Source: Butyriboletus loyo | Taxonomy: Eukaryota; Basidiomycota; Agaricomycetes; Boletales; Boletaceae | Direction: 5' to 3' | Assembly: GCA_038093515.1 (NCBI GenBank) | Contig: JBBPSI010000040.1 | Coordinates: forward strand, 62,001-126,000 | DNA length: 64,000 bases | Part shown: one piece after another, positions 16,649 through 29,666 of the stretch | How positions within the stretch are numbered: the stretch's first letter is position 1 | Layout: each line of letters opens with the position of its first letter | Notes under the pieces: generated by a model | Told to the model about the DNA's origin: nothing | Database searches by the model: none | Seen by the model: the letters and a program-made list of their open reading frames with translations, nothing else | Position numbers and translations under genes: made by a program

Positions 16649-19600
16649 ATGCTCGTTCTCTATGGATCATCTGCGCTCACAGAAACAAAGCGTCAGATCC
16701 TTCTGCGTGACATCCAGACTATAAACGGCGACATCTTGTCTGTAGACACTCTTTTTATTCATCTCGTGAAATGCCGGACGCAAGCGCTCGAGCGGGAGCT
16801 CAGCAACAGTCATCTGTCTCACAGGCAATCACTCACTGCCCTTCTCGACTATGGCAACAATGTCCAGTTGCCCAATACCCTACACACCCTCCGAGGTGAT
16901 CAAAACACTGTCTACGTTATCCCGAGAGCGGGTTCTATATCTCCATGGAGCAGTAAGGCAACAGATATCGCAGCCATCTGCAATCTCGGGGAGCACGTTG
17001 AGAGAGTCGAGCGAGGCATCGCGTACGCTTTTCATATGAAACAGGGCAAGACGCTAGACAATACGGTGGTTTCCCAAATTTCGCATCTACTCCATGATCG
17101 TATGACGCAAACCATTCAACTCTCTCTCCCTCACGAAGACGTGATATTTAAACATCAAGATCTCAGCCCCTTGCGGACAGTCAAGTTGACAAACCAAGTC
17201 GTCGGTGAAGCAGTGGATGCTGCCACCGCCAGAGAACGTCTCTCTGCCGCCAACAAAGTACTGGGCCTTGCCCTCGCACCCGATGAAATCGATTATCTAA
17301 TCGATGCTTTTGTTACTGGAGTTTCTCCGCTCAACCGCAACCCCACCGATGCAGAGCTCTTTATGTTCGCTCAGGTTAACTCGGAGCACTGTAGGCACAA
17401 GATTTTCAATGCCCCCTGGACTATCGATGGAATTCCTCGCGAGAAATCACTTTTCAAAATGATTCGGAATACCGAAGAGAAGTGCATTCACAAGGCTATC
17501 TCTGCCTACTCCGACAACGCCGCTGTCCTTGGGGGCCCAACCATCCCTATATTTGGACTCTGGACCCAAGAATCCAAAGAAACACAGGTTTATACCTCGA
17601 GAAAATTCGAGCCTAATCCCATCCTCATCAAAGTCGAGACCCACAATCATCCTACAGCAGTTTCTCCATACCCAGGGGCGGCAACAGGTTCCGGCGGGGA
17701 AATCCGCGACGAAGGCTCTGTCGGCCGAGGGTCCAAGCCCAAAGCTGGCTTGGTTGGCTTCACTGTGTCCAACCTTCGTATCCCTGGCTATGAGCAACCG
17801 TGGGAAACTGACTTTGGTCGGCCATCCCACATCGCATCGGCCCTGGAAATCATGATTGATGGTCCACTGGGTGCGAGTGCATTTAATAATGAGTTTGGAC
17901 GACCAGCGCTTGCCGGCTATTTTCGCACGTTCTCAGAGTCCGTGCCTGCCTCGGAGGATGGGGCGAAGGAAATCAGGGGGTACCACAAACCTATCATGAT
18001 CGCTGGCGGGTACGGAAATGTACTCACATGCTTCGCGAAGAAATCGGCCATTGAGCCTGACGCGAAGATAATTGTGCTAGGAGGCCCCGGAATGCTCATT
18101 GGTCTAGGAGGCGGAGCCGCGTCTAGCCAGGTCTCTGGGGCTGGTTCGGCCGAGCTCGATTTTGCATCTGTGCAACGGGATAATGCAGAAATGCAGAGAC
18201 GGTGTCAGCAGGTTATTGACGCGTGCATAGGTCTGGGAGATGGGAATCCGATTCAGAGCATCCACGATGTCGGAGCCGGCGGCCTATCCAATGCCCTACC
18301 CGAATTGGTGCATGATTCCGGGCTCGGAGCGATATTTGAGATACGAGACATTCTCGTTGCAGATAGCTCCATGTCGCCGATGGAGATCTGGTGCAATGAG
18401 AGTCAGGAACGATACGTACTTGCCGTCTCCGCGGAGAAAGCCGATGATTTCGAGGCGATTGCGAAGCGAGAACGGTGCCCGTTTTCCGTCGTTGGTCGCG
18501 CTACGATAGAGGAAGAACTGATCGTCACCGACCGCCTCCTTGGTCAGGATGTTATCAATCTGAAAATGTCCACCCTTTTTGGCAAGCCACCCCGTATGTC
18601 CCGGAGAGACAAAACGCGAAAGGTTACATTCAACAACTTTGACACATCCCTGTCCAAGTACCTGCCCAATATCACCGACCCTATCTCAGTTGCAGTCGAT
18701 CGCGTACTTCGCCTTCCATCCGTTGGTTCAAAGTCTTTCTTGATCACTATCGGAGACAGGTCCATCACCGGCCTAGTTACGCGCGACCAAATGGTGGGTC
18801 CTTGGCAAGTCCCTGTCGCTGACGTTGCCGTCACCCGCTCTTCCTTTGGTGTCGACGTCCTCGCCGGAGAAGCCATGGCGATGGGCGAGAGAACTCCCTT
18901 AGCTCTCCTCAGTCCCGCTGCATCGGCACGCATGGCAATCGCCGAGTCTTTGACCAACCTCGTCGCAGCCACTATCTCGGATATCTCCCTCGTCAAGCTA
19001 AGTGCTAACTGGATGTGCGCTGCGTCAAAGGAGGGTGAAGGCGCGGGATTGTACGAGGCTGTCACCGCTGTGGGTTTGGAGCTTTGCCCTGCACTCGGAG
19101 TTGGTGTTCCGGTCGGCAAAGACTCGATGTCTATGTCAATGAAGTGGAAGCAAGGGGACGAACAACGAGAAGTTAGTGCACCTCTGTCACTCATTGTGAC
19201 CGCATTCGCACCCGTGGATGATGTTTCCACGACTTGGACCCCGCAGCTCCGCACAGATGTTGGCTCGCCAACAGCCCTTATGTTTTTCGACCTTGCTGGA
19301 GGAAGGAAGCGCATGGGCGGATCGGCGCTAGCGCAAGTGTTCGGGGAGATCGGATCTGAGGCGCCTGACGTTGTTGATCCTTCATTGCTCAAAGCCTTCT
19401 TCAGCGGCTGCCAGATCGCCAGAAAAGCAGGCTTGGTCCTTGCCTATCACGATCGTTCTGACGGTGGTTTATTTACTACCCTTGTTGAAATGACCTTCGC
19501 GGGTCGGGTCGGCGCAGATATCACACTTGATCCATTAGGTTCTTCGGGAGAAACCATTGCGACGCTGTTCAACGAGGAGCTTGGTGCTGTCATCCAAGTG

Positions 19601-20725
19601 CGCAAGCACGCGGTCGATGAATTGAAGTCTACGTTCGCCAACGCAGGTTTCCCTGCCACTTCGATCTTCGAGATCGGTAGCGTGAACGAAGATCCTACCG
19701 ACCAGGCTTTCGTTATCCGGGAAAACTCTAGTATATTGTTCTCTCGAACTCGAGGACAACTTCAGGAAACCTGGTCGGAGACGTCGTTCAGGATGCAGAG
19801 CCTTCGCGATAATCCTACTGCTGCGAGACAGGAATTCAATCTCATAAGCGACCCAACCTACAAGGGCACATATTACGAGCTCACCTTCACATATAACACA
19901 TCCCCTTTCCGCGATCTGACACACCGTCCTCAAGTCGCCATTCTGCGAGAGCAAGGTGTCAATGGCCATGTCGAAATGGCTTGGGCATTCACTGAAGCCG
20001 GCTTCAATGCCGTTGACGTACACATGACTGACATCTTGAGTGGAAAAGTATCTTTGACCAACTTCCGTGGGTTAGCTGCTTGTGGTGGTTTCTCTTACGG
20101 TGACGTCCTCGGAGCCGGAAAAGGCTGGGCTCACTCAGTTCGTCTTAACGAACTCGCGAGGAGAGAGTTCCAACAGTTCTTCGAGAACGACTGCACATTC
20201 ACACTTGGCGTGTGTAACGGATGTCAGTTCCTCAGCCATCTCCGTGACCTGATCCCTGGTGCGGCGAACTGGCCCGATTTCAAGCAGAACGCCAGCGAGC
20301 GATTCGAAGCGCGTGTATGCGTGGTTCAAATCTCGCAAAGCGACGTTACACGGCGCTCTGTGTTCCTCCGCGACATGGTCGGCTCCAAACTCCCGGTCCC
20401 TGTCGCGCATGGAGAGGGACGTGTCTCATTCGCCAATGGCAATTCTCAGCTGCAGGCCTTGCGGACGGAAGGTCTCATCGCCACCCAATTTGTAGATTCT
20501 GAGGGATTGCCGACCGAAGTGTACCCCATGAATCCCAACGGAGGCGTTGATGGTATTGCTGGGGTGCAGACACCGGACGGCAGGGTGTTTGCACTGATGC
20601 CTCACCCTGAACGGGCAACCACTTTGGAGAGTAATAGCTGGTACCCATCCACATTCTCGGATTCTTGGAATGGTGTGGGTCCGTGGTTCAAGTTGTTCCA
20701 AAGCGCGAGAGCCTGGGTAAATTGA
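16649..20725 (+). CDS. ADE6: Phosphoribosylformylglycinamidine synthase (FGAM synthase)
   Basis: One uninterrupted frame of 1358 codons, the usual eukaryotic length. The enzyme performs the fourth step of de novo purine synthesis: FGAR plus glutamine plus ATP gives FGAM. An N-terminal PurS-like domain is followed by two PurM/PurL-type ATP-binding halves ([39 protein letters not shown]; later [17 protein letters not shown]) and a C-terminal class I glutaminase. The glutaminase shows [18 protein letters not shown], the nucleophile cysteine in [12 protein letters not shown] near residue 1187, and the His/Glu of MPHPERATT near residue 1319. The absence of introns over 4 kb contrasts with every other large gene here. 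The enzyme is cytosolic. Confidence 0.97.
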
Positions 20726-21257: not shown

Positions 21258-24200
21258 ATGAGCAACAATGCTCTATTCTTCGCGGACACGGATGATTTGA
21301 ATGCGTCCAGGATACCGGTAGACAATGTCCAGCATCATTCGGGAGATGTCGTCGTGGACCTTGCAAGGTCTACCAAAGCAGAAGTTGTTTCAATGTCGTC
21401 TCAACAAGTCCGTGAAAAACGGCTATTCTTTCCTGATAGCGACGACGAGAATATTCCAACTTTCGAAGCTCCGTTGAACGCTATCACCATGACTCCTCTA
21501 ACAACAGGTACAGCCCATGACTCTGAAAGCGACCTTGAGCTCCCCTCTATCGAAGAGGTTCCACGCGCGTCGAGCGTCAGCGGTATGTCTTCCGCTGTTT
21601 CGAGGGACTCCTCTCCTGCTCCTCTTCAGCCCACTCGGTCTTCCCCACCTCCAACCAAGAAAAGGCGCCTTCTATTGTCTACACAGCCTGAACCTGCCAT
21701 CAAATCAGACGGCGTGTACCTGGGTACTTTCTTGGTCCCCAACGCTTGGAGCACGGCCAAGGGCAAAGGCTACACCAAACCAGGGGACGAAATCATAGTC
21801 GAAAGGGACAGCCCTGAGGATACCAGTGCCGCAGCGACAACCTCGGTCAAAGGGAAGAAGAAGCAGCTCACCCTCAAAGCGATGCTGAAGTCTCAGCCAG
21901 TCAAAAAAGTGAAACGGAAGACAGATACGATTATCCGACTTACAAATAAAAGGGGGTTCGGTAAGTACATCGTTGTGTAATGGCTACAGGCTGTGTGACC
22001 GGGTCTAAAGAATTTGGCCGATTACCGCAAGACATTGCTGGATGGGTATCGAAGTTATTAGATATGGGTAATTCTGTTTCTGTGGCCCATTTCTCGTGTT
22101 TACATTCATACATCCACCAAGGTTTGATCAACTTCAGGGGCAGTACAATGGTCGATTGCCCGGCTGTCCTCTACTCAGGTGCAGACATGATCGTCTCCCT
22201 CTCTGTTTACATTTCCGCTTCAGCGTTCAAACCCGTTAATGCATCGGACGCTTCCACCCAACCAAAAGTCATGTTCGGACAAGGAAAGGAGACTGAGGAA
22301 GAACAATCTCTCCGTGAGCGAAAAACTGCACTCCTGGTTTTATTTGACGCTGTCAGCCTTCGACCGCGCGCTGGTGCGCGAGCCTTAAGTAGTGACCAAA
22401 TTCCAGATGGGGATGAATGGCAGAATGGAAAACCCGCGCAGAAACCGGCAGGGACAAAGAAAACGAGAACCGAAATAATAGGTGACGGAGAGGAAATTGA
22501 AGTCGAAGAGGGTGAAGAGTTGTCTGACAATCAATTGGACCAGATTTACCAAAGGTGATCGAACCATAACTTCATACACGGCATATCTGATTCCATCCCT
22601 ACAGGGCACAGCGACACGACCAGACCATGGCAGAGATGGACCCTCCACCGACATTTACGTTCACGTTAAGGGGATATCAAAAGCAAGCATTGACGTAAGT
22701 TAACTCTCGCCTGGGCAAATTGTATACTTAATATTGGGCAGGTGGATGCACTCTATGGAGTCGGGCGAAGTCTCCGCGAGAGAAGCAACGTCCATGCATC
22801 CTCTGTGGAGCGAGTGAGTCTCAACTACATTCTAGAGCTACTCATCATGACCGTTCTTCAGATACGTGTTCCCCACCGAACCGTGTAATGGATTAATTGA
22901 CCTAACTGATGATGACAAACCGTTCTATTTCAACCCCTTCTCTGGCGAGCTCAGCCTGGACTTCCCCAAGGTTGAGTGCAAACTTAGAGGTGGAATTTTA
23001 GCGTAAGTCTCTGCACTTTATGCTTGGCATGAAACTCATTAACACTTGTAGAGATGGTAAGCATTGCCACCTTCGCTGATAGAGACTGATATTCGAACAT
23101 ACCATGTCTTAACAGAAAGTAAGCACCAAGTGAAATCAGACATTTTATCTGTCCGACCTTCATTCACAGTGGGAATGGGCAAGACAATCATGATATCAGC
23201 CTTAATCCACATCAATAAAGGACCAGAGCCTCTCAATGACGACGGGAAGCAGTCTGCTCGTGGGCGCCAGTTAAGACTGGACAGCGCTTTCCGAGCCATC
23301 CCACCCAATCAAACAAAACGACCAACGAAGGGCCCTTCCGCGACCCTGGTTGTTGCTCCGACATCTCTTCTCTCCCAATGGTCTGACGAACTGGAGCGTT
23401 CCAGTGTTGCTGGAAGCGTGCGAGTTATTGTCTGGCATGGGCAAAATAGGTTAGATCTGGACGGCTTGGAGGCCGAGGAAGACAGTGACATAGGCATACC
23501 CGTCGTCATTACCTCTTATGGTGTCTTGGCTTCTGAGCATTCTAAGTTTGAGAAATCAAACGGTCAATCATCGGTCTACCAAAGTAAGGCTCGATTTTCT
23601 TACCTGATTAGGTACTGACTTAACATGGCAGTTGAATGGATGAGGGTTATTCTGGACGAGGCACACTACTGTAAATCAAGAACGAGTAAAACTGCCCGGG
23701 CCGTCTACGCACTTCGGGCGAGGCGGAGGTGGGCCGTCACGGGAACACCTATCGTAAATAAGCTCGAAGACCTTCATTCGCTCTTGTGAGAAGTACCGTT
23801 TTTTGTTGGATTTTCATACCCACATCCAGAGCAGGAAATTTCTGGATTACACTCCCTGGTCATCTTCTGCCTTTTTCCGCTCGTATGACTTATCGGTAAT
23901 CGTTTGACCACAGCTGAGGGTTGTTCTAGGTTTATTACGTTACCATTTCTCGCCCGCGACCCTAAAGCGATCGAGATAGTGCAAGTTATTTTGGAGAGTA
24001 TTTTACTCCGCAGAGAGAAGAATATGCGGAACAGCGATGGGAATCGGATCGTAGAGCTCCCCCCAAAGGAAGATATAATCGAAACTCTTCACTTCTCCAC
24101 TGCGGAGCGAAAAATTTACGACTCTATCTATGATACCGCCAAACGAAGCTTTGATCAGCTTAATGCCAAAGGATTAGTTGGCAAGAACTATACCCACATT

Positions 24201-25580
24201 CTCGCCATGCTCATGCGGTCCGTGCTTGACAGAAGGTCGAGGTTCCTATGGCTAACAAACTAGTACTCAGCTTGCGACGTGCCGTGCTGCACCCGGATCT
24301 TGTCGTAGATACCAAAGATCAGATGAACGAGTTTCCATCAGGCTCGAAATGCATCGAGATGGATACCTTAATACATGATGTTGTCGAGCAGCAAACCTCT
24401 GATGCTTCAAACATATCCTTCGCCAAGAACGTACTCTCCAATCTTGCGGCATCCGAGACAGATGAATGCCCCATTTGTCTCGATGTGATGGAGGCTGCGG
24501 TCATCATTCCTCAGTGTTTACATCGGTGGTAAGCATCATCTACTTCTCGCGTCACCCACAACTTATATCCTTCTTAGCTGCAAAGATTGTATTGTTTCTT
24601 ATATAACGGCCTGCTCCGAGCGAAGCGAGGAAGGACGCTGCCCTTCCTGTTCTCGAGGACCTATCAAAGAAAATGAATTGATAGAGGTTTTTAGACCTAA
24701 AACCGAAGATGAAGTGAAAGCCGCACCTCTTCTTTCAGGGGATGACAAAGTCGTAGAGCCCGTGACTGTACCAGTGGTTGAGCTACGTCGTAACGACTTC
24801 CGCTCCTCTACAAAACTCAATGCTTTGATTCAAAACCTACGTAAGTCGCCATTTGGTTATTTGACAGCGGAGATAGTTATAGTTGTCAAATAGGTCGACT
24901 GCGAAACCAAGATCCATACTTCCACGCAATCGTCTTCTCACAATTCACTTCGTTCCTCTCGCTCATATCAACAGCTCTTGACCGCGAACATCTCGCTTGG
25001 TACCGCTTTGATGGTTCTATGGACATAAAAAAGCGCAGCGCGGCGATAGCTGAGTTCAAACAAAGTGAGCGCAAGCCCAAAGTTCTGATTATTAGCCTGA
25101 AGGCTGGTGGGGTTGGGCTGAATGTAAGAGAATTGCTCTCTCGATAGCCTCTGCTCATCACACAAACAGCTTACCTGCGCTAATCATGTATTCATGGTGA
25201 GTCTTTCAGTGGTCTGTGCAGGGCAAATATAACACCCGTCCTAGATGGATTGTTGGTGGAACGCGGCAACTGAGAACCAAGGTATATTTCCCAGTTGAAT
25301 CTTGCCTACATGCAGTAACATCTTCGCAGCGATTGACCGTGTTCACCGCATTGGCCAAGATAAGACAGTCTATGTCAAGCATTTCATCGTAAGAAAACAT
25401 CATTTTGCACACTCAACATTGATGTTCCCCCAGATTGAGAATACAATTGAGGGCAATATACTAGAGATCCAAAAGCGCAAGACGGCCATCATCAAGGAAG
25501 CGTTTCGAGGAACGAATAGGTCAGGAAAAGCTGATTCTGAGAGCTTAGAAAATCTCAAATTTATCTTCGATGATAATTAA
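21258..25580 (+). CDS. RAD5: RAD5-type SNF2 ATPase and RING ubiquitin ligase
   Basis: Nineteen exons sum to 3429 nt, 1142 aa, close to yeast Rad5. The protein polyubiquitinates PCNA and remodels stalled forks in error-free damage tolerance. The acidic, Ser-rich N-terminus carries [10 protein letters not shown] (NLS-like). A HIRAN-like region follows ([31 protein letters not shown]). The SNF2 half has ADEMGMGKTIM (Walker A), the DEAH box [10 protein letters not shown] and [10 protein letters not shown]. Inserted in it is a RING finger: [26 protein letters not shown]. The C-terminal helicase half has [21 protein letters not shown] and [12 protein letters not shown]. Walker A is assembled through exons of 5 nt (23052-23056) and 3 nt (23116-23118). 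A 27-nt exon (25170-25196) encodes LTCANHVFM. All catalytic motifs are present. Confidence 0.95.
23052..23056 (+). other. 5-nt micro-exon in the RAD5 Walker A motif
   Basis: The exon AGATG lies between intron 23003-23051 (GTAAGT...TGTAG, 49 nt) and intron 23057-23115 (GTAAGC...AACAG, 59 nt). It completes the Ala codon, supplies Asp and gives the first base of Glu in ADEMGMGKT. Without it the frame is lost. Confidence 0.85.
23116..23118 (+). other. 3-nt micro-exon in the RAD5 Walker A motif
   Basis: The exon AAA lies between the AACAG acceptor and intron 23119-23169 (GTAAGC...CACAG, 51 nt). It supplies the last two bases of Glu and the first base of Met. With it the motif reads ADEMGMGKT; if skipped the frame is kept but the motif becomes ADVGMGKT. 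Confidence 0.8.
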
Positions 25581-26988: not shown

Positions 26989-29666
26989 TCACCCGACCCT
27001 CACCCGGTTCTGTAAGGGTAAGATACCAGGAGGAGTGATTAAAGCCGTGAATTCCTCCATGTTCCGTTTGCCTCTAGATCCTGGGGTGACCTTACTTTGC
27101 TCGATTTTCCGTTGTCGCCTATCCGCATTTGGACAGCTGACCTCGAACCTTCTGGTCCACGAGCTCTGATTGTAGACGAAAATATCGAATGTGAACTGAT
27201 CCGATGGATATATCTTCCTCTGTCCAAACGGATAGCTGTCGTCAGACTCAGTAGCTAAGAGGCCCACAGAGACGACAACGGGCTCTCCCGATGGTACCGG
27301 CAGAGGCTCTCGTCGAGTGTCATACTGGGTATTCAGGACGGTCGGGAGCGGCGTCTGTGGCACCGCGGTCATCATTCCCATTCCTCTCTCTCGCTTGATC
27401 TCAATGCTCGGACCGGAATAGCCTTGTTGACTGCCCAGTGCCTGGATGTGTGGCGCATTGGCTGTCACGCCTGGCGAAAACATGGGGTACGCAGGCGTAG
27501 GTGGTGTGACGAATGGCTGCGCCGGTATTTCGGACAGTGAGGCGTTGACATTAAACCCAGCCCCTCCACTCGGTGGCGGAGGTAGCATTCCAAATGTGGT
27601 TGAGGCCGATCGATTGAATGTCTGAAGCGCAACAGAAGGAGGGGTGAAACCCGTTGTCGAAGCAGGTGGCGCAGACCCTCCAGGGTGTTCGCGAGACGGT
27701 AAAGAGAGACGAAAGCCGGCAGAGGTGTTAATAGCACGCATGGCGGTGATACTACCAGGGAGCGTGTGTCGTTTTCCTGCAATTGCTTGAGGTATGGGCA
27801 TCGCGGGTACAGGAGACGAGACGAGAGATGAGAGAGTGCTACGGCCTGGAAAGGGTGAAGGAGGTTCGGGGAGGGCACTACGTCCTGTGGAGGTCTCGTG
27901 GAAATGTACAGGTTCCTCGCGAGGTCTAGATGATAGGTCAAGAATGCAATTCCACCGGGAGGAGAAGGTTTGAGTTGGGTAGGATAGAATGCTGTGTTCA
28001 TCTTTGACTTCATTTGTGAGATACGGTCTACCGTAGACAGTGATCGTCACTGCTCTCTGTAATTCCCCGCCGTCGTTGATACCCTGTGACGTCAACAAGT
28101 TATCTTGATCATTTGGTGTGTTCCAGAAGGATACGACGTAGAGGAGGTTGTACTGTTCCATTGAGCCTATGAGGAGAGGAAAGAGGTGTTTCTCGGTATC
28201 CGGGTTGAAGGCACCATCTCCCCATCCGATTAATCTCGTAGTCGCACCTTCTCCGCCAATGTTCACAACTAAACGCTCGAGCGAGAAACCGGTGGCTGGA
28301 CCTGACTCTCCCGAGTTCTCCACCTCAACGCAAAGGACCACAGTGCGTTCACTGTTTCCTGCTTCCCGCTCTTCGTTCCCACTTTCGAAATCATTGCAGT
28401 CGTGGGCGTCCTGATCGCTTGCGGAAACAGAGGAGTTCTTCGGCAGCAAGACATGAGGAACAAATACAGTACGCATTCGGACACGAAATCCAGAGACCGT
28501 CTGCAGAATTTTGCGATAAGATTTTCGCAGGATATGACTTGGACTCTGTTTGGAAATTGAAGGTGTTCGAGTCGGCGCGGATGCCGGAGGAAGCGAAAAG
28601 TATCGTTGACGAGTGGTATTTCCTAGTCGAGTTGAAGGGAGGTGGAGCGACTCGGAGTCCGATGATATACTGGAACCTGCTGAAAACAAAATATTCATTA
28701 TATACGCCGGATCGTGATGCATAGACGCACCCAGTGTGAGCCCTTCAAGTAAGTTAATTTCCTCGAAGCCAGTATCTTCACTTTCTTCGAGTTCCTCACC
28801 ATCCTCACCTCCCGTCACGGCTCCCGAATCAGGATGAGAAATCATACCTGCTCTGGCTAGGTATGCAATAAGCGGGTGAGTTGACTGGGAGAGAGATAGC
28901 GCCTTCTCTCGTAATGTAGCAGATGCGGTCAGACAAAGCAGAGGATCGGAGAAGGGAAGGCGCAAATAGGCTAAGAAGTTCAACACGGCCGCACCAAACA
29001 CAAGGATAACCTTACTCACACACGATCAGGGAAAGTTCATAGACGGCGATCCAGCTTCTTTGGGACTCGGAAAATAGGAGTGCAAACTTCTCTTTTGATT
29101 CCTCTGTTGCTTTTTTCGTTCCCCAAATACTAGAAAAGAGTAAAGTTCCTTCTGATTGCACATATTTCCGGTCACTTTCAGTAGTTGACGGGATGGGATT
29201 CGGAGTGTTGGGTGGAAATATCGAGGGATGAGACGAGAGCGGGCGGCCCTTGAGCATAGATGACGTGCGAGGATGGACAAGGCTAGCCGTGTCCAGTACA
29301 TCCTGGTTTGGCATTTTAGGGATGTAGCTCGCTTCTAGCGACACTTGTATATGACTGAGAAAGTCCACAAGGGTCCGTGGAGGACTATGGTGATTGTGTG
29401 GGTTATTGAGAGATGGATGTTTAATGTGCATCACAAGAAACAGATTCAATTGCTCGTCTAGATACCTGTGAGCTTCGGTGTGGTGCAACGATGAGTATAT
29501 AATGTACCTCACCGAAGAAAGCCTGCTTTCTCTCCGCACGGGGTTGTTTGACGCTCGCGAGCCAGTCATCGGCGACGATACATTCCGGAAACGATATCGA
29601 GGTAGCTGGCGTAAGAGCGTCAAGTACACAAGACCCAAAAAGTGTCTCTAACGATTCCTCAGCCAT
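26989..29666 (-). CDS. TRS65: TRAPPII complex subunit Trs65
   Basis: A fungal subunit of TRAPPII, the late-Golgi guanine-nucleotide exchange factor for Ypt31/32. The start is MAEESLETLFGSCVLD. Introns near 29550-29465 and 29030-28985 join FF to DEQLNLFLVMHIKHPS and LIV to SYLRLPFSDPLL. The middle contains a beta-rich region (VVLCVEVENSGE; LLYVVSFWNTPND; RAVTITVYGRPYL), a long Ser/Pro-rich linker, and then VVVSVGLLATESDD, FTFDIFVYNQSSWTRRFEVS and the C-terminal IEQSKVTPGS...GILPLQNRVRVG, the signature end of Trs65. About 830 aa. The gene is divergent from ELP6, with 234 bp between the start codons. Confidence 0.85.

Follow-up and report, generated by a model that had tools for sequence, protein, structure and literature searches.

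How is motif I of the SNF2 ATPase domain, ADEMGMGKT, encoded in the RAD5 gene of Butyriboletus loyo, when no continuous frame at the site encodes it? The gene for this RAD5/HLTF-type DNA repair ATPase lies on the forward strand at 21258..25580 of the window, which is the whole stretch of 64,000 nucleotides that was analysed. It was assigned from a rebuilt gene model, its domains and the best protein match. The rebuilt model has 19 exons and a CDS of 3429 nt, which encodes 1142 amino acids without an internal stop. An earlier note on this DNA had summed the 19 exons to 3429 nt, a multiple of three, and our rebuilding arrived at the same model with an open frame of 1142 codons. Along the protein, the Pfam domains HIRAN, SNF2-rel_dom, zf-C3HC4 (RING) and Helicase_C were found in this order, so that all four elements of the RAD5/HLTF type (HIRAN, an SNF2 ATPase with an inserted RING, Helicase_C) are present and in order. 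The top sequence match in the PDB was 6l8n, the DNA repair protein RAD5 (E 2.7e-66), which we take to be from Kluyveromyces lactis. The top protein match was from Boletus edulis with 88% identity at residues 430-930. When the 501 bases around the site were compared with the own genome (30.3 Mb in 420 contigs, with the window in contig 40), the single match was the site itself.

The neighbourhood of the gene was also inspected. Directly upstream, at 16649-20725 on the forward strand, lies an intron-free phosphoribosylformylglycinamidine synthase ORF of 1358 aa with FGAR-AT domains. The intron density differs sharply between this frame and the 19-exon RAD5 gene. On the reverse strand, a stop-to-stop frame of 678 codons at 26992-29025 had no Pfam match at E 0.001.

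The interruption of motif I was followed along the forward strand. Exon 6 (22862..23002) ends with ...GGIL and the GC of an alanine codon. Intron 6 (23003..23051, 49 nt) runs from GTAAGT to TAG and has a TTAAC branch-like element close to its 3' end. It is followed by exon 7 (23052..23056), a micro-exon of the 5 nt AGATG that is read A / GAT / G. Intron 7 (23057..23115, 59 nt) runs from GTAAGC to ACAG with CTGAT branch-like elements, and exon 8 (23116..23118) consists of the 3 nt AAA, which finish GAA and open ATG. Intron 8 (23119..23169, 51 nt) again runs from GTAAGC to ACAG and has a CCGAC branch-like element; the branch elements of all three introns were assigned by motif only. Exon 9 (23170..23583) begins with TGGGAATGGGCAAGACA, which finishes the methionine codon and leads into GMGKT. 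Exons 7 and 8 are both internal, not longer than 15 nt and bordered by GT/AG on all sides, as micro-exons are defined. The earlier note had proposed these coordinates, the two micro-exons and the three introns with GTAAG...AG ends, and on recheck all of them were exact. The matches of the donors to the U1 consensus were 6/9 for introns 6, 7 and 8, which is average for the RAD5 gene where the donors range from 5 to 7. The RAD5 introns are 45-59 nt long.

We then enumerated the possible splice combinations within 22961-23260. Donors could be GT or GC and acceptors AG, the first donor had to lie before 23061, and no more than two internal exons of up to 60 nt each were allowed, with a minimum intron length of 30 nt. 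Exactly one of the 28,880 combinations restored LRGGILADEMGMGKTIM, and this was the AGATG plus AAA solution. A narrower enumeration with GT donors only gave the same single solution. Since the only splice solution that restores motif I uses both micro-exons, they are required for the conserved coding sequence. The 167-nt interval was also shuffled with the dinucleotides and the terminal GT/AG kept, introns of at least 35 nt and every synonymous codon allowed. Any solution with one or two exons appeared in 3 of 20,000 shuffles.

A comparison of the same intron positions in related genomes had been suggested as a check, and it was made with unspliced fragments of relatives, whose DNA was read only via translated ORFs. 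Viral contigs were also scanned for DNA of the relatives, and none turned up there. With the exon-9 stretch as a query against short proteins only, 120 of 322 matches were listed, one of which (P0121) was the window's own. Among the 120 matches listed, 28 contained VG[ML]GKT with the frame running upstream through the exon-9 acceptor, 3 had a continuous ADEM (P0163, P0186 and P0229) and 89 started at or inside exon 9. At least 16 upstream residues were present in 13 of the 28 fragments. In 10 of these 13 among the matches listed, xES or QKV was found, which are the two open-frame readings of AG/AAA/GT, a signature that was fixed once the fragment peptides had been inspected for the first time. 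Exon 8 is accordingly read at the same position in relatives. The peptides are compatible with AG/AAA/GT without proving the letters, because each of E, S, K and V is encoded by more than one codon. By the peptide reading, intron 8 is 48-58 nt long in the ten fragments, and in two of them (P0159 and P0204) the signature implies the less usual GTGC donor. The other three fragments have 16-17 upstream residues, which is not enough to reveal an intron 8 with a length of at least 48 nt. When the peptides were shuffled in 5000 rounds, the mean was 0.25 and the maximum 3, and no round reached 10. Exon 7 was read in P0175, the only such case among the fragments listed, where L-V-E-M-V-R corresponds to TAG/AGATG/GTAAG and intron 7 measures 51 nt by a hand count from the peptide. 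The donor of exon 7 was also seen in P0130, which starts with M-V-S as a reading of ATG/GTAAG.

The nearest full-length proteins to the ten fragments were sought among 120 listed RAD5 proteins of relatives. They were from Boletus (79%), Scleroderma (75% and 78%), Hypsizygus (68% and 64%), Galerina (61%), Tetrapyrgos (87%), Dentipellis (66%), Pilatotrama (70%) and Postia (97%). Identities of 79-97% place a fragment firmly in an order, and those near 60-70% only loosely. For the genera discussed here and below, the orders were looked up for Boletus (Boletales), Dentipellis (Russulales), Gloeophyllum (Gloeophyllales), Jaapia (Jaapiales), Trametes (Polyporales) and Lentinula (Agaricales); those of the other named genera are presumed. 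The continuous ADEM in P0163, P0186 and P0229 shows that these introns are not present in every lineage and points to a probable intron loss in some. In a rough tree of the short fragments, which carries no support values and gives a rough placement only, the three grouped with P0151, in which the exon was read.

The 120 RAD5 proteins were extended to a sample of 148 by a chimeric-query search (120 listed, 28 new). The names in this sample, as far as we recognised them, are presumably all Agaricomycetes. The 148 entries are not all independent, because Dichomitus squalens occurs three times among them. Nine proteins of the sample come from intronless contigs of the source 'lgn' (eight) or 'jgi' (one), and all nine contain ADEMGMGKT. 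We take 'lgn' to stand for the Logan assemblies. The nine frames are intron-free and have 701-1159 codons; eight of the contigs are 3.4-4.2 kb long, and in seven the frame fills 83-97% of the contig, while P0040 is on a contig of 15 kb. Since frames of about 1150 codons run without introns, we infer that these contigs are best read as cDNA. They are not nine independent cases, because P0029, a partial protein, shares 99.7% identity with P0021. The intronless P0044 and an Armillaria fumosa model that reads GGILAYVGMGKT have 95% identity across 1158 aligned residues, and P0021 is 90% identical to a Pisolithus croceorrhizus model that reads GGILADGKMGMGKT.

The deposited models were analysed for breaks at the exon junctions by pairwise alignment. 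For every exon junction of the window gene, gaps and insertions at a distance of up to three residues were counted. At the three micro-exon junctions, whose windows overlap, indels occurred in 76, 80 and 79 of the 120 proteins, and at each of the other 15 junctions in 0-10 of the 120. In linker windows near residues 932-949, up to 94 of the 120 proteins had indels. Since length variation is thus not rare in RAD5, the test was narrowed to windows that are gap-free in the nine intronless-contig proteins, which was the case for 539 of the 680 six-residue windows at residues 441-1120. The five most-broken of the 539 windows all lie in motif I and were disrupted in 63-80 of the 111 genome-derived proteins. 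For the windows outside residues 485-510 the median was 0, and the highest value, 53 of the 111, was reached near the C terminus.

The motif I region was disrupted in many different ways among the 120 proteins. ADEMG[ML]GKT was present in 30 of the 148 proteins. In the 139 genome-derived models, which all have NCBI as their source, ADEMGxGKT was intact in 21 and the expected motif I was absent from 118. ADVG was read by 28 of the 139, and this is the exact product of skipping the 3 nt: GAT G joined to TG GGA without AAA encodes ADVG. The skip is frame-neutral, as the earlier note had stated. Further 11 of the 148 models read xEMGMGKT where x is not D, which fits an exon 8 extended into its own AG acceptor; x was always codable by NNA, which is a weak test. 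The exon-8 acceptor was kept in the models of Melanogaster, Hypsizygus, Dentipellis fragilis and Taiwanofungus, among others. LADGK, found in 5 of the 148 proteins, fits an exon 7 extended into the donor GTAAG. This strict count was used instead of an 'ADGK/E' class, which was discarded since other parts of the protein can match its pattern too. The models of Gloeophyllum (ADVG) and Jaapia (GGILALVGMGKT) were broken at the micro-exon site as well. An exon of 3 nt is smaller than gene finders can handle and leaves the frame unchanged, and for these reasons exon 8 is skipped or garbled in the majority of the deposited models that were examined. Taken together, our results make it very probable that the 3-nt exon is real, common to several mushroom orders and systematically missed.

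Among the Mycena models P0060, P0093 and P0108, some break or lack GMGKT itself. In P0060, which is one of the 118 models, the break is located after the micro-exon site, and the protein reads ADEMGMGKARTIELAAL, as if there were a further intron directly downstream of motif I in Mycena.

The frame-neutral skipping of AAA had led the earlier note to propose an on/off switch of the ATPase. Under some conditions the 3-nt exon would be skipped, resulting in ADVGMGKT and a dead ATPase with intact HIRAN and RING domains. Skipping does keep the frame, and ADVG is present in 28 of the 148 proteins. However, all 28 are genome-derived models, whereas the exon is present in all nine intronless-contig proteins and ADVG in none of them, with a clustering at 90% identity that could hide a minor skipped isoform. 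Since ADVG is confined to the genome-derived models, the switch is left without support. In addition, the models disrupt motif I in many other ways, as a prediction problem would do, the intron peptides of the relatives had no common block beyond the splice sites when inspected by eye and unaligned, and the donors of introns 6, 7 and 8 match the U1 consensus no better or worse than the RAD5 average. We consider a regulated switch very unlikely. A skipping at low level or in certain cell types, making an ATPase-less RAD5 that keeps the HIRAN and RING domains, has an equally slim chance; if true, three nucleotides would separate the ubiquitin-ligase from the remodelling roles of RAD5 across the mushroom-forming fungi.

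The motif is absent from every continuous frame, which would also be seen if a pseudogene or an assembly error had broken motif I and the micro-exons were a chance match. The remainder of the 1142-codon model is open, the motif was restored in so few shuffles, and the same-exon reading in 10 of the 13 unspliced fragments of relatives among the matches listed largely contradicts a chance match, so that we regard this possibility as close to nil. It may also be asked whether introns 7 and 8 are one complex intron in which one interrupts a splice element of the other. The accessible parts of the literature on fungal stwintrons (spliceosomal twin introns) describe neighbouring introns that are spliced consecutively, and a 3-nt exon likewise implies consecutive reactions. 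In RAD5, however, introns 7 and 8 do not interrupt each other's splice elements, as each has a complete donor and acceptor. A removal of 23057-23169 as one intron would delete the Glu codon, and the only motif-restoring solution keeps AAA. A nested intron is therefore highly improbable. The micro-exon reading of motif I was right, backed by the unique splice solution and by the relatives.

We are confident that the best explanation is a constitutive inclusion of the 5-nt and 3-nt micro-exons with short, intron-defined introns that are removed in order, and an origin by repeated insertion at motif I. Both consecutive micro-exons would always be included in the RAD5 mRNA, with their eight nucleotides AGATGAAA encoding D-E of motif I. 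The introns of 49, 59 and 51 nt would each be recognised across the intron by their own donor and acceptor. Intron definition is described in general terms in the accessible text of PMC8624252, which also cites work linking PRP-40 to the inclusion of very small exons. The earlier note had argued from exon definition, but RAD5 introns of 45-59 nt are consistent with intron definition and point to it instead. Its view that 3 nt is near the physical limit was too strong, since exons of 1 nt have been validated in plants according to the available part of PMC8831610. Only 3 nt separate the acceptor of intron 7 from the donor of intron 8. Their simultaneous engagement is therefore unlikely, and the two introns would be removed one after the other.

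To our knowledge, micro-exons have hardly been studied in the mushroom lineage, and among the titles and abstract openings listed from the open-licence literature we found no description of the RAD5 micro-exon structure. The closest cases come from plants, where the accessible text of PMC8831610 reports 1-nt exons of APC11 and VPS55 in land plants and adjacent exons of 5 nt and 12 nt in a rice gene. As in RAD5, very small coding exons are deeply conserved there and missed by annotation, micro-exons can be adjacent, and some lineages lose them by intron loss. The genes named in that text are from plants and are not SNF2 ATPases, whereas in RAD5 a stretch of eight coding nucleotides in a fungal P-loop is interrupted by three introns. 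For the P450 genes of Phanerochaete chrysosporium, also a mushroom-class fungus with small introns and small exons, the shortest exon given in the accessible part of PMC1184071 is 6 bp, and a cross-species conservation test is not reported in that part. The micro-exon of Trichoderma Xlr2 is fungal too, its omission removes a key domain feature, and it was missing from the first annotation as in the RAD5 models; as far as the accessible text of PMC11121469 goes, it differs from RAD5 in that it is from an ascomycete and has a glucose-dependent regulation.

If our reading is right, a 3-nt exon has been kept across several mushroom orders in the motif that is most constrained in a DNA-repair ATPase, and a systematic database error in genome-derived RAD5 models is exposed. 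With 118 of 139 models lacking the expected motif I, inferences of enzyme loss or divergence from those models are unsafe. The site is a natural system for the handling by the spliceosome of two splice sites that are 3 nt apart, and it also bears on whether SNF2 P-loops attract intron insertion.

In the own genome, 12 SNF2 genes other than RAD5 were resolved at motif I; eight further SNF2 loci are outside this count. One intron in motif I (GGILADEMGLGKT or a variant) was present in 10 of the 12 paralogs (L002, L003, L004, L005/L008, L007/L031, L016/L017, L018, L022, L025 and L028), at seven different positions, and the motif was continuous in the other two. L004 was read by eye, its motif being excluded by the search pattern. 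In L004 and L016/L017, the intron has the codon position and phase of RAD5 intron 7. At the intron density of RAD5, about 18% of the genes would be expected to have an intron in motif I, and 10 of 12 corresponds to a P of about 2e-6, an estimate that rests on the intron density of this one gene. The P-loop codons of the SNF2 genes in this genome look like a hot spot of intron insertion. The simplest account would be independent insertions into motif I codons, three of which struck a stretch of eight nucleotides in RAD5. Judged from the shared exon, the insertion in RAD5 would predate the split of Boletales, Agaricales, Russulales and Polyporales, and many lineages would have retained the arrangement since then, while some have probably lost it. 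In the paralog L005/L008 on contig C37, the motif I intron of 53 nt would use a GC donor, GCGAGC.
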